From Herbidospora sakaeratensis (GTDB taxonomy: Bacteria; Actinomycetota; Actinomycetes; Streptosporangiales; Streptosporangiaceae): a DNA stretch of 64,000 nt. A program made the translations under genes and the position numbers. Below, piece by piece: positions 4,098-14,264 of the stretch. The stretch covers positions 314,576 to 378,575 of the forward strand of contig NZ_BBXC01000012.1 in NCBI RefSeq assembly GCF_001570525.1, read 5' to 3'. The notes under the pieces are model-generated. The model searched no databases and was not told where the DNA came from. It worked only from the letters and a program-made list of their open reading frames with translations. The first letter of the stretch is position 1. Every line of letters begins with the position of its first letter.

Positions 4098-4178
4098 GGC
4101 TCTCCTTGTCACAGCATCCAATAGCGTTGGTGAGAATTGTCTCGGACAACGCCGGGACCTCGCAGGGAGATTCCTTTC

Positions 4179-4592
4179 ATGTCGGCACCAGCTCCGCGCC
4201 CGATCCTGGGCACCCCCGACGAGTTCCCGCCCAGGCCGCCCATGGGGCGCAGCCGGTTCGTCGTGTACGCCGTCATGGCCGTCGTCGTCGCGGTCGTGGC
4301 CGGCGGATGGGGTTACGTGATCCTGTCGGCGCGGGGCAACCCGGAGGTGCGGGCCGACGTCATGACCTTCGACACCAGCCGCCCCGATTCCGCGGAGATC
4401 ACCTTCATGGTGCACAAGCCCGACGACCGCGCGGCGACGTGCCGTCTGCGCGCCGTCGACGTCCATCACGTCGAGGTCGGCACCCGGGAGATCACCATTC
4501 CCCCGGGCGACGGTGACGTCACCCTCACCGAACAGGTGAGGATCAACGCGCAAGCCACAAGCGTAGATGTTCAGGGCTGCTCCCTCGTATAG
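4179..4592 (+). CDS. DUF4307-type membrane-anchored protein
   Basis: This 137-residue protein has a Pro-rich cytoplasmic N-terminus (residues 1-24), one transmembrane helix (about 27-49, YAVMAVVVAVVAGGWGYVIL), and an extracytoplasmic beta-rich domain with two cysteines (CRLRAVDV and VQGCSLV) that may form a disulfide. DUF4307 proteins are commonly found next to mca in actinobacteria, as here, where the two genes diverge. I chose the ATG with AGGGAGA eight bases upstream; an in-frame ATG at 4137 would add 14 residues but lacks a ribosome site. Function unknown. Confidence 0.8.
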   Translation: MSAPAPRPILGTPDEFPPRPPMGRSRFVVYAVMAVVVAVVAGGWGYVILSARGNPEVRADVMTFDTSRPDSAEITFMVHKPDDRAATCRLRAVDVHHVEVGTREITIPPGDGDVTLTEQVRINAQATSVDVQGCSLV

Positions 4593-4671
4593 ACTGGAAT
4601 CTTTGGGGAAGCGTTCGAAGGCGTTAACTTGTTAGCCCTTCGATTCACCTAGGGAAGCAAGGAGAACCCGC
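4593..4671 (+). promoter_or_regulatory. greA leader
   Basis: The spacer between the DUF4307 gene and greA contains an imperfect hairpin (CGAAGG at 4616-4621 against CCTTCG at 4637-4642) and an AAGGAG ribosome site just before the greA GTG. The TATAGACT at the end of the upstream gene could serve as a -10. Function of the hairpin is not clear. Confidence 0.35.
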
Positions 4672-5172
4672 GTGGCCGTCTCCCACAACGAGAACGTCAC
4701 CTGGCTGACGCAGGAGGCGTACGACCGCCTCAAAGAGGAGTACGACCGCCTTTCTGGCCCGGGTCGGATCGAGATCGCCAAGAAGATCGAGGCCGCCCGC
4801 GAGGAGGGCGACCTGAAGGAGAACGGCGGCTACCACGCCGCCAAGGACGAACAGGGCAAGATGGAGGCCCGGATCTTCCACCTCCGGCAGATCCTCGACA
4901 CCGCGAAGGTGGGCGAGGCGCCCCGCACCGAGGGTGTGGTGGGTCCCGGCATGACGGTGACGATCCGGTTCGAGGGTGACGACGAAGAGGTCACCTTCCT
5001 GCTCGCCTCCCGCGAGGAGAGCGGTTCGCCGATCGACGTCTACTCGCCGAAGTCGCCGCTGGGGGCTGCGATCAACGGCAAGAAGATCGGCGAGAAGGCC
5101 AGCTACACCATGCCCAACGGTCGCTCGATCACCGTCGAGGTGCTGGAGGCGGTTCCCTACATCGGGAGCTGA
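4672..5172 (+). CDS. greA: transcription elongation factor GreA
   Basis: GreA binds the secondary channel of RNA polymerase and stimulates cleavage of the 3' end of backtracked RNA. The 166-residue protein is full length. It has an N-terminal antiparallel coiled coil (about 1-80) including REEGDLKENGGYHAAKDEQG, whose acidic tip residues D and E stimulate the polymerase active site, and a C-terminal FKBP-like domain (about 90-160) with SPLGAAINGKKIGEKASY. GTG start with AAGGAG eight bases upstream. It is monocistronic: a perfect hairpin follows 18 bases after the stop. Confidence 0.95.
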   Translation: MAVSHNENVTWLTQEAYDRLKEEYDRLSGPGRIEIAKKIEAAREEGDLKENGGYHAAKDEQGKMEARIFHLRQILDTAKVGEAPRTEGVVGPGMTVTIRFEGDDEEVTFLLASREESGSPIDVYSPKSPLGAAINGKKIGEKASYTMPNGRSITVEVLEAVPYIGS

Positions 5173-6538: not shown

Positions 6539-7118
6539 GCAGGCCGGTCTCCAGCAGGGCGAAGGCCTCGTCGACCATGTCGGCGAACGGGATGTCCTCC
6601 TCGGCGGTCGCCCAGGTCTGCAGCACGGGGATGATCGTGCCCATGACCGCGCCGATGAGCACGCGTACCGGGAACGAGGCGGGGTCGGCGCCGGTCCGGG
6701 CGGCGACGCCCTCGGCGAGCAGGTCCATCGTGTCGAGCATGTTCTGGAAGATCCGGGCCCTGATCGCCGGTACGCCCATCTGGAGGCGGGCGCGGGCCCG
6801 GATCTCGGCCAGTTCCTGGTCGGGGATGCCCCGCATGGCCTCGCCGAAGGCGTTGCGCAGGGCCCTGAGCGGGGGCACCTCCGGCGGCTGGGCGGTCAGG
6901 CGTTCGACCAGCAGCGGGTCGTAGTCGTCCTGGACGACGATGTCTTCCTTGGTGGGGAAGTAGCGGAACAGGGTGCTGGGCGACACCTCGGCGGCCTCGG
7001 CGATCTGCTCGATCGTGGTCGCGTCGTAGCCCTGCTCGGCGAACAACCGCAGGGCGTGTTCCTGGATCGTCCGCCGAGTCTTCTCCTTCTTGCGTTCACG
7101 CAGTCCCGGCGAGTTCAT
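6507..7118 (-). CDS. TetR-family repressor of the adjacent efflux pump
   Basis: The 203-residue protein has a canonical N-terminal TetR helix-turn-helix (TTIEQIAEAAEVSPSTLFRYFPTKEDIV, split here as residues about 34-61) and a divergent ligand-binding C-terminus. It overlaps the upstream DHA2 transporter gene by 23 bp on the same strand, so the two are translationally coupled. This is the standard arrangement of a drug-responsive repressor with its pump. A plausible target is the AGTA-N2-TACT palindrome in the transporter promoter (8711-8720). The ligand is unknown. Confidence 0.88.
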   Translation of the reverse strand: MNSPGLRERKKEKTRRTIQEHALRLFAEQGYDATTIEQIAEAAEVSPSTLFRYFPTKEDIVVQDDYDPLLVERLTAQPPEVPPLRALRNAFGEAMRGIPDQELAEIRARARLQMGVPAIRARIFQNMLDTMDLLAEGVAARTGADPASFPVRVLIGAVMGTIIPVLQTWATAEEDIPFADMVDEAFALLETGLPIEPAPRPEG

Positions 7119-8688
7119 GGGTCGATTCTCCCGCCGGTTCCGCGGGAGCGGAACGCATGAACGTCACGATCAGCAGCGCGGCGAGGGCCATCAGGCCGCC
7201 GCAGGCCCACAACACGGCGTCCATGGCGTCGGCGAAGGCCGCGCGGCCGGCGTCGGCCCAGCCCGGCACACGCACCGCCGTCGCCACCGAGTCGCGCACC
7301 GGGGCGGGGGCGGCCGGGGGGAGCGCGTGGACGTACACGGAGGAGAGCAGGCTGCCCAGCCCGGCCACCCCGAACGCGCCGCCGGTCTGGCGGAGGGCCT
7401 GCAGGACGCCGTTGCCCATGCCGGTGCGGTCGGGCGGGAGGAGGGCGAGCAGGCCGTCCATGGCCGGGACCATGGTCAGGCCCACGCCGGCCCCGGCGAG
7501 GGCGAGCCAGGTCGCGGTGTACGGATAGTCGCCCGGCAGCACCGCCCCCGCCATCAGCCCGGCCGCCAGCAGGAGCAGGCCGGCGGCCATGATGACCCGC
7601 AGGCTCAGCCGCCTGATCAGGCGTTCGCCGGCCAGGCCGCCCGCCATCAGCCCGGCGACCATGGGCACGATGCGCAGCCCGGTGCCCATCGCGTCGAAGC
7701 CCTGGACGGCCTGGAGGTAGAGCGGCGCGACGAACAGCACGCCCATCATGCCGAGCGAGACCACGGTCGCGCCGAGGGCGCCCCAGACGAAGGTGCGGTC
7801 GCGGAACAGCCCCAGGTCCATCATCGGGGCCTGGGCGCGGGCCTCCACGCGTACGAAGAGAAAGAGGAGGAGGACCCCGGCGGCGATCGGCCCGAGCACC
7901 AGGGGAGAGCCCCAGCCCCGCACCGGCGCCTCGATGACGCCGAAGACCAGCGCGGCGAGGCCGGTCACCGACAGCAGGGTGCCGGGGACGTCGGCGGCCT
8001 TCTTCTGCGGATTGCGCGACTCCGGCACCAGGACCACCACCGCGACCAGCGCGATCACCACGGCGGGCAGGTTGATCAGGAAGATCGAGCCCCACCAGAA
8101 GTGGTCGAGCAGGTAGCCGCCGACGATCGGGCCGAGCGGCAGGCCCACGGCCATGCCGGCGGTGAAGACGGCGATCGCCCTGGCCCGCTCGGCGGGCGGG
8201 AAGATCGTCGGCAGGATCGACGTCGACAGCGGCGTGATCAGGGCCGCGCCCGCGCCCATGAGCGCCCGCCCGGCGATCAGCCACCCGGTCGAGTCGGCCA
8301 GCATCGCCATGGCCGACGCGACCCCGAACGCCACCAGCCCCGCGACCAGCAGCTTCTTGCGGCCGAACCGGTCGCCGAAGACCCCGGCGGGCAGCAGCAG
8401 GGCGGCGAACACGACGAGGTAGGCGTCGACGATCCACTGGAGTTCACCGGTGGTCGCGCCGAGGTCGACGGCGAGGGTGGGCAGCGCGACGTTGAGCACG
8501 GTCGCGTCGAGCCCGATCACGAGGACGGAGAGAACCAGGGCTGCGAGAGCCATGTACGGCCGAAGGCCGGGCTTGGCTCGAGTCTGGAACCTGCCGGAAG
8601 ACAGGGACCACCATCTGGAAGCGAGACGCTGGCGGCCGGAGGCCGACTGTGGCTCGCGTTCGGGAATCTGCCTAAAGGAAGTCGCCAT
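7096..8688 (-). CDS. DHA2-type MFS multidrug efflux transporter (14 helices)
   Basis: The protein (530 residues from this start) has about 14 hydrophobic helices. It carries the DHA2 hallmarks LVIGLDATVLNVALPTL at the first helix, ELQWIVDAYLV, motif A GDRFGRKKLLVAG, and the motif C-like GLPLGPIVGGYLL. Such transporters export drugs with the proton gradient. The first helix begins at an internal ATG at 8553. The ATG at 8688 follows a TTGACA/TACTAT promoter by six bases and would be a leaderless start, but the 45 extra residues are encoded by a hairpin repeat (8558-8676) and show no family resemblance. Both starts are possible; 8553 lacks a ribosome site. Cotranscribed with the overlapping TetR gene. 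Confidence 0.88.
   Translation of the reverse strand: MATSFRQIPEREPQSASGRQRLASRWWSLSSGRFQTRAKPGLRPYMALAALVLSVLVIGLDATVLNVALPTLAVDLGATTGELQWIVDAYLVVFAALLLPAGVFGDRFGRKKLLVAGLVAFGVASAMAMLADSTGWLIAGRALMGAGAALITPLSTSILPTIFPPAERARAIAVFTAGMAVGLPLGPIVGGYLLDHFWWGSIFLINLPAVVIALVAVVVLVPESRNPQKKAADVPGTLLSVTGLAALVFGVIEAPVRGWGSPLVLGPIAAGVLLLFLFVRVEARAQAPMMDLGLFRDRTFVWGALGATVVSLGMMGVLFVAPLYLQAVQGFDAMGTGLRIVPMVAGLMAGGLAGERLIRRLSLRVIMAAGLLLLAAGLMAGAVLPGDYPYTATWLALAGAGVGLTMVPAMDGLLALLPPDRTGMGNGVLQALRQTGGAFGVAGLGSLLSSVYVHALPPAAPAPVRDSVATAVRVPGWADAGRAAFADAMDAVLWACGGLMALAALLIVTFMRSAPAEPAGESTHELAGTA
8558..8600 (+). repeat. degenerate copy of hairpin repeat (copy C)
   Basis: GGCCGAAGGCC followed by TTGGCTCGAG, GGAACCTGCC resembles the adjacent copy A (8623-8676) in order and spacing of its blocks. 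It ends just upstream of the internal ATG of the efflux gene. Relationship to copy A is an inference from by-eye alignment. Confidence 0.45.
8623..8676 (+). repeat. 54-bp dispersed hairpin repeat (copy A)
   Basis: GAGACGC, then CGGCC-GGA-GGCCG (a perfect 5-bp hairpin), then GTGGCTCGCG and GGAATCTGCC. It matches 36855-36907 (copy B) at nearly 90 percent of positions by eye. Both copies lie at the 5' end of an MFS transporter gene in the same orientation relative to the gene. Confidence 0.8.
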
Positions 8689-11506: not shown

Positions 11507-12460
11507 ATGGGCTCCCTTTTGCTCTTCATCCTCGCGTCCGTCGCGTCCGTCGTGGTCTTCCGTCAGGCGGGACGGGTGAAGAAGGAACAGCGCCGGGTCA
11601 AAGCCGGCGGCTACCATCCCGCGGGCCCCCTCGACCCCTACTCGCTGGCCTTTCTCGCCGGCGGCCCGCGCCGGGTGGTGAACACGGCGGTCGCCGTGCT
11701 CGTGTCCCAGGGGCGGGTGCGCATCTCCCGCGACGGGACCGTCACGGCGGTGCGGGGCATCGCCGGGGCGCCCGCCGAGCGGATCGAGCAGGAGGTGCTC
11801 GATCTGGCGGCCGGGACCAACGGGCGGTCGCTGGCCGACGTCCGGCGGACCGCCGCCGTGGGCCCGGCCGTGACGGGCATCGACTACGGGCTGCGCGGCC
11901 AGGGCCTCGTGGTGGCCGAGTCGGCGCTCACGCTGGCCCGGCGGGCCAACTCCAAGTTGCGCTGGATGGTGGCCATCCCAGGACTGTTCGTGCCGGTCAG
12001 CATCGTGACGATGGTGCTGGGCTGGTTCGACGCCCTGGTCTGGAACGTGCTGACGCTGGTGATCTCGACGCTGACGTGGATCATCGCGCTGGCGATCTCG
12101 TCCGGGCACGCCAAGGAGAACCGCAGCGTGCTGACCGACGCCGGGCACGCCGCGCTCAAGTCAGCCATGGCGCGCTACCCGCGCACCCGTGAACTCGCCT
12201 ACGCCCACAACAGCGGCAACGACAGCACCCTCGCCCTCTACGGCATCGCCATCTACACCGGGCCGGGCCACGCCGAACTCCAGAACGGCAGCGGGTGCGG
12301 GGCCGGGGCGTGCGGCGGGCCGTCCGGCTCCGACTCCGGGTGGGGTTCGGGCTCCGACTTCGGCGGCGGCGACTTCGGCGGCGGCGGTGGGGGCGACTCC
12401 GGTGGCGGGTCGAGCTGCGGCGGTGGTGGTTGCGGCGGAGGCTGCGGTGGCGGCAGCTGA
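11507..12460 (+). CDS. TIGR04222-type membrane protein with Gly/Cys-rich tail
   Basis: This 317-residue protein has an N-terminal hydrophobic segment (about 3-18), the family segment [21 protein letters not shown] (split around residues 45-65), two further membrane helices (about 150-190), and a C-terminal tail of about 60 residues made almost entirely of Gly, Ser, Asp and Cys, with five cysteines ([11 protein letters not shown] and [16 protein letters not shown]). I chose the ATG preceded by GGAGG; an in-frame ATG lies at 11453. Its 3' end overlaps the DUF692 gene by 14 bp. The tail resembles a RiPP core, so this protein may be the substrate of the DUF692 enzyme; that is inference from context. 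Confidence 0.8.
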
Positions 12461-13259
12461 CCGGCTCGGGGTCGGCATCGGCTGGCGGTCGGAAATCGAC
12501 CTGACCGTCGAGCACCTGCCCGGGGTCGAGTTCACCGAGGTCATCGCCGAGACGGTCAACCCCGGCCGGGTGCCCGAATCGTTGCGGGTGCTGCGCGCCC
12601 GGGGCGTCCCGGTGATCCCCCACGGGGTGGCGCTCGGCCTCGGCGGAGCCGAACGGCCCGACCAGTCCCGGCTCGACCATCTGGCCGCCGCCGCCCAGGC
12701 CCTCGGGTCTCCGCTGGTGTCCGAGCATCTCGCGTACGTCCGCTCGGGCGACCTCGAAGCCGGGCACCTGCTGCCGGTGCCGCGCACCCGCGACGCGCTG
12801 GCCGTGATCGTGGAGAACGTGCGGATCGCCCTCGACTGCCTGCCGGTGCCGCTGGCCCTGGAGAACGTCGCGGCCCTGTTCGGCTGGCCCGGCGACGAGC
12901 TGACCGAGGCCCAGTTCCTCGGCGAGCTGGTCGAGCGGACCGGGGTGAAGCTGCTGATCGACGTGGCCAACCTCTACACCAACCAGGTCAACCTGGGCCT
13001 CGACGCGGTCAAGGCCCTCGACGCGCTGCCGCTCGAACACGTCGCCTACGTCCACGTCGCCGGCGGCCACGGCCACGGCGACGTGTGGCACGACACCCAC
13101 ACGGCCTCCCCGCCGGAGGAGGTCCTCGACCTGCTGGCCGAACTCTGCGCCCGGCACCGGCCCCCGGGCGCCCTGCTCGAATGGGACGCCGACTATCCGA
13201 GCGACGCCGATCTGTCGGCCGAACTCGACCGCATCAGGGCGGCGATGGGCCGTGGCTGA
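12447..13259 (+). CDS. DUF692 (MNIO) multinuclear iron oxidative enzyme
   Basis: DUF692 enzymes such as MbnB, TglH and BufB use two or three irons to oxidatively remodel cysteines or other residues of peptides. The 270-residue TIM-barrel-type protein keeps the expected ligand-bearing motifs: E35 in EVIAETV, H59 in [10 protein letters not shown]94 in [38 protein letters not shown] and [10 protein letters not shown]. The GTG start has GGAGG six bases upstream, inside the end of the TIGR04222 gene, so the two are translationally coupled. A small third gene follows 41 bases later. MNIO enzymes usually need a partner protein for substrate recognition, which the third gene may supply. Confidence 0.88.
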
Positions 13260-13300
13260 GCGAAACAGGCGGCCGGGCGGAGCCGTAACGGAGCGGACGA

Positions 13301-13663
13301 ATGCATGACCCCCGCGCCCGGCTCGCCGAGCAGCAGAGAGCCCTGCTGTCGGCCCTGGTCGCCGGGGCCGCGCCGCCCGAGGGGTTCGACGCCGAGCGGC
13401 TGCGGATCCAGGCCGGAAGCCTGATCGCCAAGCGGCGGGGGCTGGTCGCGGTGGCCCGGCCCGAGGTGGTCGAGGCGCTCGGGGGCGCCTTCGCCCGGGA
13501 GTTCCACGCCTACGCTTCCGGTCGGCCGAAACCCCAGGGCGGCTCGCGGGCCGACGCGGCGGCGTTCGCCGACTGGTTGCGAGGCCGCGGGCTCCTCGAT
13601 TTGGAGCCCCAGCAAAAGAGACACTGGTGGCGTCTCACCTCAAAAAGGGATCAATCACGGTAG
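13301..13663 (+). CDS. small partner-like protein downstream of DUF692 gene
   Basis: This 120-residue protein begins RARLAEQQRALLSALVAG and has AERLRIQAGSLIAKRR (about 38-53) and a Trp-rich basic end (KRHWWRLTSKRDQSR). The LAEQQ..LL.ALV pattern and the following helix resemble the N-terminal part of DUF2063-type proteins, which act as substrate-binding partners of MNIO enzymes; similarity is by eye only. It starts at ATG with GGAG seven bases upstream and lies 41 bases after the DUF692 stop on the same strand. No membrane segment. I infer a role as the third component of the TIGR04222/DUF692 system. Confidence 0.7.
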   Translation: MHDPRARLAEQQRALLSALVAGAAPPEGFDAERLRIQAGSLIAKRRGLVAVARPEVVEALGGAFAREFHAYASGRPKPQGGSRADAAAFADWLRGRGLLDLEPQQKRHWWRLTSKRDQSR

Positions 13664-13703
13664 AACCGGTTTGCGGGGGTCCGCCCGGGATACCCTCTGT
13701 GGC

Positions 13704-14264
13704 GTGGGTGGACTACGGTGCGTTGATGGGTCGTACCTGACGGTTGATCCCGTGGCATGCCGCGACAGCGCCGGGGTGCCCTACGAGGTCACGCTGGAGT
13801 TGTTCCGCGACGGCGTGGCCTACGGCTCGGTCGGGGAGCGCTGCGGCTGGTTCCTGGCCCGCCTGGCCCGGTCGGTGGCCGAGGCCCGGGAGTGCCAGCT
13901 CGCCTGGAGCGATCCCGACGACCGGTTTCCCGGAGAGGCCGACGAGGCGGAGCTGTTCGGGTTCCGCTACCGGAGCCGCACCGACGTCGTGGGCGGCGGG
14001 GAGCTGCGCTGCCAGCTGCGGCTCATCCCCGTCTGGGTGCCCGGCCGGGGTTCGACCGGCCGCTGGCGGCTGACCCGGCGGGCCTGTGTCGAGGCGTGGG
14101 GCGCTCCGGGCGTCGGGCTGCGCGCGGTGGTCACTTCCGGAGAACTCCTGATGTTCCTGATGTCTCTCGTGACAGAAGCAGAAGTCCGGCTTGGCGCCCA
14201 ATATGGGATGGAACGTAACAGCTCCCTCATTTCGGGAGCGGGGATGGCATCTCGCCCCCGATAA
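13704..14264 (+). CDS. hypothetical cytoplasmic protein
   Basis: I do not recognise this protein of about 186 residues. The frame stays open from at least 13671. No start has a ribosome site; I chose the GTG that lies seven bases after TACCCT, a possible -10, as a leaderless start. The body (SAGVPYEVTLELFRDGVAYG, WFLARLARSVAEARECQLAW) alternates beta and helix patterns; there is no membrane segment. It lies 40 bases downstream of the DUF692 partner gene on the same strand but appears to have its own promoter. Function unknown. Confidence 0.55.
   Translation: MGGLRCVDGSYLTVDPVACRDSAGVPYEVTLELFRDGVAYGSVGERCGWFLARLARSVAEARECQLAWSDPDDRFPGEADEAELFGFRYRSRTDVVGGGELRCQLRLIPVWVPGRGSTGRWRLTRRACVEAWGAPGVGLRAVVTSGELLMFLMSLVTEAEVRLGAQYGMERNSSLISGAGMASRPR

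Follow-up and report, generated by a model that had tools for sequence, protein, structure and literature searches.

TglHI and MbnBC each consist of an MNIO enzyme and a small partner protein, which together act on Cys of a peptide. The locus described here also combines an MNIO gene with that of a small putative partner, and the profile of its MNIO matches the solved structure 3bww, the TglH-entry chains (8hci, 8hi7) and the MbnB chains. It differs from TglHI and MbnBC in that their substrates are small peptides and not membrane proteins, and the similarity between the partners is weak. Bufferin systems have in common with this locus the MNIO superfamily, Cys-containing substrates (putative here) and the use of an enzyme with a partner. 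However, their partners are DUF2063 proteins of PME-type 1, and precursors of both bufferins and Buf_EGKCG carry a Sec signal peptide, as described by Antoine et al. (2025; PMC12452194); both features are absent from the window, i.e. the stretch of 64,000 nucleotides of DNA of the soil actinobacterium Herbidospora sakaeratensis that was analysed. According to the Discussion of the same paper, Cys-derived thiooxazoles of the Buf1 bufferin chelate copper.

The closest described systems are gene clusters that pair MNIO enzymes with TIGR04222 membrane proteins. As reported by Antoine et al. (2025), TIGR04222 proteins often adjoin MNIO genes, and a subset has Ser/Gly-rich tails whose Cys residues are proposed to be MNIO substrates; more than one quarter of the family has no C-proximal Cys. 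Many of these clusters apparently have no partner gene, and at least 10% encode a short partner of PME-type 2. The tail was placed in the periplasm on the basis of the predicted topology of models. The Herbidospora locus shares with these clusters the membrane-protein family, the adjoining MNIO, the Ser/Gly-rich Cys tail and a short partner with no DUF2063 signature. It differs in three respects from the clusters as described there: of the 40 MNIO loci of the class that have a Cys-tailed TIGR04222 protein, 39 have a partner domain, which often shares the reading frame of the MNIO; anchors of other kinds bear the tail as well; and the tail probably faces inward.

The pairing of TIGR04222 and MNIO genes is already in print, and what appears to be new is a better-supported partner, a possibly portable tail and a likely inward orientation. 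The initial annotation of this DNA knew of no characterised example of the arrangement, which holds with respect to biochemistry but not with respect to the arrangement as such, as this was published in silico (Antoine et al., 2025). A literature search that covered mostly titles and abstracts found no report of a fusion of MNIO and partner, of alternative anchors or of a cytoplasmic tail. The reading we favour, and consider rather likely, is that the tail is tethered and cytoplasmic and that its Cys-Gly sites are modified by the MNIO and its partner, probably to bind metal.

The Herbidospora locus

Open reading frames and profile matches confirm the gene arrangement that was first noticed in the DNA, i.e. 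a membrane protein with a 60-residue tail containing five Cys, a complete DUF692 gene that overlaps it by 14 bp, and a small third gene (Table 1). The sequence ggagg is found 4 nt ahead of the ATG at 11507 of the TIGR04222 gene and again 5 nt upstream of the GTG at 12447 of the MNIO gene. A genome search gave one TIGR04222 and one MNIO match, both of which are the window genes. An additional open reading frame is present downstream of the third gene at 13671-14264, and neither Pfam nor NCBIfam gave a match to its segment 13737-14264.

Table 1. Positions in the 64-kb window of the three genes and of the features discussed in the text
Feature	Position	Strand	Basis
TIGR04222 membrane protein, 317 aa, likely substrate	11507..12460	+	NCBIfam TIGR04222, 106 bits vs cut-off 43; AlphaFold mean pLDDT 81.5
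TM1, residues 1-19, with a strongly basic stretch after it	11507..11563	+	Hydropathy; AlphaFold helix 2-33
TM2-TM3 hairpin, residues 154-172 and 181-199	11966..12103	+	Hydropathy; AlphaFold helices 138-171 and 177-205
Unstructured Gly/Ser/Asp/Cys tail with five Cys in the 60 C-terminal residues; candidate modification site, probably cytoplasmic	12278..12457	+	Sequence; pLDDT <50 for most of 264-317
ggagg, ribosome-binding-like site of the MNIO gene, within tail codons	12437..12441	+	Sequence
MNIO (DUF692) enzyme, 270 aa, GTG start	12447..13259	+	PF05114, 262.9 bits vs gathering score 25
Third gene, 120 aa, likely MNIO partner (PME-type-2-like), four-helix model	13301..13663	+	Homologous domain beside MNIO matches of the class; mean pLDDT 84.2

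In an alignment of 19 rows, residues H51, H86, E131, D164, H195, D208, H210 and E237 of the window MNIO are invariant. We take these to be the metal ligands expected of an MNIO. The enzyme falls below the equivalog cut-offs for both BufB (NF050167, 181.1 bits vs 310) and MbnB (TIGR04159, 28.7 bits vs 325). Its closest named relatives, among the best 80 of 574 candidates, are from Herbidospora and show 94-97% identity. These 80, chosen by MNIO similarity, are the named loci referred to below, and the sample therefore leans to near relatives of the window.

The third gene as likely partner of the MNIO

The third-gene protein has no Pfam or NCBIfam match of its own. A profile was built starting with the window protein and two Streptomyces homologues that share a frame with the MNIO, and with it the domain was detected at 72 of 86 MNIO matches and in 70 of the 76 MNIO-containing genomes among 296 sampled from the class. 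(For the 86 matches, three pieces of one gene, G177:C116, were merged, and several are short fragments.) At 28 of these matches the domain is encoded by a separate gene. At the other 44 it is in the frame of the MNIO itself, downstream of the enzyme domain, which indirectly supports an MNIO-partner complex; because frames were read from one stop codon to the next, a few of the 44 may instead be separate genes that adjoin in the same frame. On a phylogenetic tree of the MNIO, at least nine changes between the fused and the separate state are needed. This tree has 71 rows and omits two short MNIO matches as well as MNIO matches with no partner, G291 excepted. The domain is also present at 48 of the 51 named loci that have a Cys-tailed TIGR04222 protein, and two of the three gaps are less than 200 bp from a sequence end. 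The gene neighbourhoods make it very likely that the third gene encodes the partner of the MNIO. A partner domain in one frame with the enzyme would also explain the apparent absence of partners from published TIGR04222-MNIO clusters.

The initial annotation was correct with respect to a small gene at this position, but its description of the protein as DUF2063-like finds little support in the sequence, as a DUF2063 hit is obtained with only three of the 33 family members in the alignment (best E 0.073). The third gene adjoins the MNIO gene and has no DUF2063 signature, the properties by which PME-type 2 partners are recognized. Likeness to DUF2063 is weak by Pfam, by PDB profile, by Foldseek and by hhalign; the latter gives a colinear alignment with three DUF2063 proteins at P 0.005 and a probability of 7%. 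A Foldseek comparison of the four-helix model with the PDB lists 18 weak matches, with the MbnC chain 7dz9_C at rank 8 (TM 0.34, E 6.3), and neither NGO1945 (3dee) nor TglI (8hi7) is among the matches listed. A search of the Herbidospora genome found no DUF2063 match, and only four of the 296 genomes of the class have one; three of the four are over the cut-off and are beside a separate, higher-scoring MNIO type. This distinct MNIO type, with PF05114 scores of 367-370 bits, adjoins the DUF2063 gene at L133, L134 and L135.

Co-occurrence of the Cys tail and the MNIO

A TIGR04222 protein was considered Cys-tailed when its final 60 residues contained three or more Cys and G/S/C made up 50% or more of its final 30. 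At least 109 of the 296 genomes have a TIGR04222 match; at most nine candidates were scored per genome, so some TIGR04222 genes can have been missed. The set that was analysed consists of matches over the cut-off and two just below it, i.e. 109 proteins from 86 genomes, and leaves aside 29 weaker matches and three second pieces of genes already counted.

Fifty-one of the 109 proteins are Cys-tailed, and 43 of these are encoded less than 2.5 kb from an MNIO match (35 within 650 bp and eight more within 2.5 kb). Six others are elsewhere in a genome with an MNIO, and the remaining two are in MNIO-less genomes, one of them at a contig edge (G067) and the other with a tail that is not like a real one (G162). 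Among the 58 proteins with no Cys tail, 19 are within 2.5 kb of an MNIO, 16 are elsewhere in an MNIO genome and 23 are in genomes with no MNIO. An MNIO is thus present in 45 of 47 genomes that have a Cys tail, vs 17 of 39 that have only tail-less TIGR04222 proteins (Fisher p 5.9e-8, with kinship ignored). In the tails, 209 of 244 Cys are followed by Gly, and Gly makes up 46% of the non-Cys tail residues.

For controls and for entire loci a general definition of the tail was used, i.e. at least three Cys in the last 40 residues with at least 65% G/S/C/H/D in this segment. The six-frame stop-to-stop reading frames of at least 60 codons in the window contain one such tail, that of the 11507-12460 protein itself. 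One tail, from a contig-edge gene, was found in 243 kb of TIGR04222 loci from genomes with no MNIO match, and one in the minus strand of MNIO gene neighbourhoods totalling 868 kb. With these near-zero counts, a low-complexity artefact of GC-rich DNA is ruled out.

The initial annotation suggested a check of whether a C-terminal Cys/Gly tail goes together with an adjacent DUF692 gene, and this is borne out in only part of the class. Among the named loci, a Cys-tailed TIGR04222 protein is present at 31 of 32 outside Streptomycetaceae but at 20 of 48 inside this family. In the class sample, MNIO-partner loci have a tail by the general definition in 40 of 46 cases outside the Streptomyces group and in nine of 26 inside it. 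(Streptomyces group here denotes genus code g30; the label was given on the basis of its likeness to named Streptomyces loci.) The other six loci outside the group have no tail within reach; two of them are short MNIO matches, and three of the six genomes (G085, G095 and G177) have a Cys tail elsewhere. At locus L085 a Cys-rich, tail-like open reading frame (6804-7163, + strand) is found in another frame just after a tail-less TIGR04222 gene.

The tail on other anchors

The tail is not confined to TIGR04222 proteins. Eight MNIO-partner loci with no TIGR04222 gene nearby encode a one-helix protein with a Gly/Ser/His/Cys tail (L139, L143, L144, L146, L148, L149, L152 and L154), and seven of the eight genes are situated between the MNIO and partner sequences. 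Two other loci, L142 and L145, have the tail on large non-TIGR04222 frames of 476 and 452 residues, respectively, with no Pfam match. The MNIO tree requires nine changes of anchor class, losses included; for the one-helix class, three changes are needed even when only starred branches are counted, and gains and losses are not distinguished in this number.

By this comparison of loci, the tail, and not TIGR04222, is the shared element. TIGR04222 as the associating unit is ruled out, as other anchors bear the tail and 23 of the 58 tail-less TIGR04222 proteins are from MNIO-less genomes. The co-occurrence of tail and MNIO, the one-frame partner domain and the same tail on unrelated anchors all support the initial proposal of a three-part system with the Cys tail as its likely substrate. 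A broader proposal, which is tentative and falls somewhat short of probable, is that the Gly/Ser/His/Cys tail represents a portable cassette for MNIO chemistry. The cassette would be carried on varied membrane anchors and large proteins at the inner face, where it would form a permanent, tethered metal site of modified Cys, i.e. a resident modification rather than a released product; the MNIO responsible for it and its partner would often form a single polypeptide.

Orientation of the tail

The topology was assessed by hydropathy and by counting charges. The assessment included 56 Cys-tailed proteins, 32 of which are clean three-TM cases and 24 of which are not. K+R counts in the clean cases average 3.53 for the 15 residues that follow TM1, 2.97 ahead of TM2 and 3.47 past TM3, compared with 0.53 for the TM2-TM3 loop and 0.00 ahead of TM1. 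By the positive-inside rule, loop 1 and the segment after TM3 are set inside, with the tail, in 31 of the 32. In the window protein, TM1 is followed by [14 protein letters not shown] and TM2 is preceded by [10 protein letters not shown]; the TM2-TM3 loop is free of K/R, and TM3 is followed by HAKENR. The eight one-helix anchors show a similar bias, with four to eight K/R in the 20 residues after the helix and, given the start codons chosen, none or one before it. Some relatives have no TM helices (L120, L124, L126 and L129), and by eye these also have no hydrophobic N-terminus. In the AlphaFold model, the segment ahead of the tail comes after the TM2-TM3 hairpin, and the tail and the soluble domain should therefore share one side of the membrane. 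The soluble domain has a weak Foldseek likeness to the cytosolic GOLPH3/Vps74 (E 0.21) and, by hhalign, a likeness to DUF2207_C (P about 1e-4, probability 57%).

The charge bias, the one-helix anchors and the TM-less relatives suggest that the tail is probably on the cytoplasmic face. This contradicts the periplasmic orientation published by Antoine et al. (2025), and it also goes against the initial description of the product as displayed on a membrane anchor, if display outside the cell was meant. A tail inside the cell could be reached by enzyme and partner with no export problem. In the published scheme, the tail would be the substrate of MNIO and partner and would then be moved across the membrane, to function as an anchored extracytoplasmic metal binder. 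Antoine et al. (2025) state this orientation from predicted topology, and the Sec signal peptides of the bufferin and Buf_EGKCG precursors fit with it. Hydropathy alone also predicts four segments in 31 of the 56 Cys-tailed proteins, with the extra one mostly near residues 230-250, and a fourth membrane span would turn the tail outward. However, this segment is modelled as two short helices and has positive apparent insertion energies, and it was rejected as a TM helix; should it be real in some relatives, the tail of those relatives would face outward. With the charge bias in nearly all clean cases, the Arg-rich C-terminal flanks of the one-helix anchors, the TM-less relatives and the likeness of the soluble part to GOLPH3/Vps74 and DUF2207_C also against it, an outward tail is considered unlikely.

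The Streptomyces group also has TM-less TIGR04222 relatives with a Gly-rich tail that contains a single Cys (L101, L120, L126 and L129), none of which lies close to an MNIO match.

Streptomyces-group loci without a tail

At 17 of the 26 Streptomyces-group MNIO-partner loci there is no tail nearby and the enzyme is kept. In the MNIO tree, 16 of these 17 form one clade (SH-aLRT 97) nested among tailed loci, and the absence of the tail there is therefore mostly one event. Searches with Cys-tailed Streptomyces TIGR04222 proteins, which would detect TIGR04222 relatives and not one-helix anchors, found a tailed relative elsewhere in none of the 17 genomes; a Cys-tailed TIGR04222 protein encoded at a distance is accordingly discounted.

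The named tail-less Streptomyces loci, a comparable set outside the MNIO tree, have intact MNIO ligand motifs in 19 of 19 checked. Their MNIO genes show a median dN/dS of 0.142 (78 pairs, 13 loci), which indicates purifying selection; the median in tailed named loci is 0.248 (78 pairs, 13 loci). Tail-less loci often retain a Cys-less TIGR04222 gene and sometimes a DUF4142 gene. The tail is absent and the enzyme is intact and constrained, so that the MNIO has another target, at least in these loci.

This raises the question of whether the MNIO acts elsewhere in general, i.e. on tail-less TIGR04222, on the DUF4142 protein or on an unlinked peptide, with the tail being a passive, unmodified segment that binds metal or is merely of low complexity. 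The conserved enzyme of the tail-less loci and the Cys-less TIGR04222 and occasional DUF4142 genes beside it would be accounted for in this way. Such a general explanation is nevertheless improbable: hardly any genome encodes a Cys-tailed TIGR04222 protein but no MNIO, the same tail is found next to the enzyme on unrelated anchors, and the tail-less loci go back mostly to one event.

Two neighbouring genes may be mentioned. Locus L045 has a DUF4142 gene (4103-4876) between the MNIO-partner gene and a Cys-less TIGR04222 gene, and at locus L054 a gene for the peptidyl-tRNA hydrolase PTH2 (1478-2191) is upstream of the MNIO.

Proposed mode of action

In the favoured reading, modification of a cytoplasmic tail that stays in place, the unit would encode a substrate protein, the modifying enzyme and the partner of that enzyme. 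The MNIO, presumably an iron enzyme, and the small third protein would work as one enzyme and oxidatively modify Cys residues, mostly those in Cys-Gly steps, within the unstructured tail at the C-terminus of the protein encoded beside them. This tail would be the module that counts and its carrier would vary, being a three-helix TIGR04222 protein here and a one-helix anchor or a large protein elsewhere. Most likely situated at the cytoplasmic face of the membrane, it would be accessible to enzyme and partner without export. The modified tail would remain tethered and would probably bind a metal, perhaps copper; by analogy with the copper-chelating thiooxazoles of Buf1, the product may be a metal site.

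If this is correct, an enzyme family known for small released peptides would also modify resident, membrane-bound proteins, and would do so inside the cell, and the orientation that underlies any experiment would change. The one-helix proteins, of roughly 85-115 residues, and the one-piece enzyme would make a small and easily tested pair of substrate and enzyme.

In the usual logic of RiPPs, the product is modified and released. A tail that is modified, cleaved and released as a small metallophore, with the TIGR04222 or one-helix part as leader or docking anchor, would agree with this logic and with anchors that are exchangeable. It is considered very improbable, although nothing speaks directly against it; the TIGR04222 protein is large and, apart from the tail, confidently folded in the model.

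As to the TIGR04222 domain itself, the scores for a GOLPH3-like or DUF2207_C-like origin are suggestive only, and the weak likeness to GOLPH3/Vps74 and DUF2207_C may hint at where the family came from.
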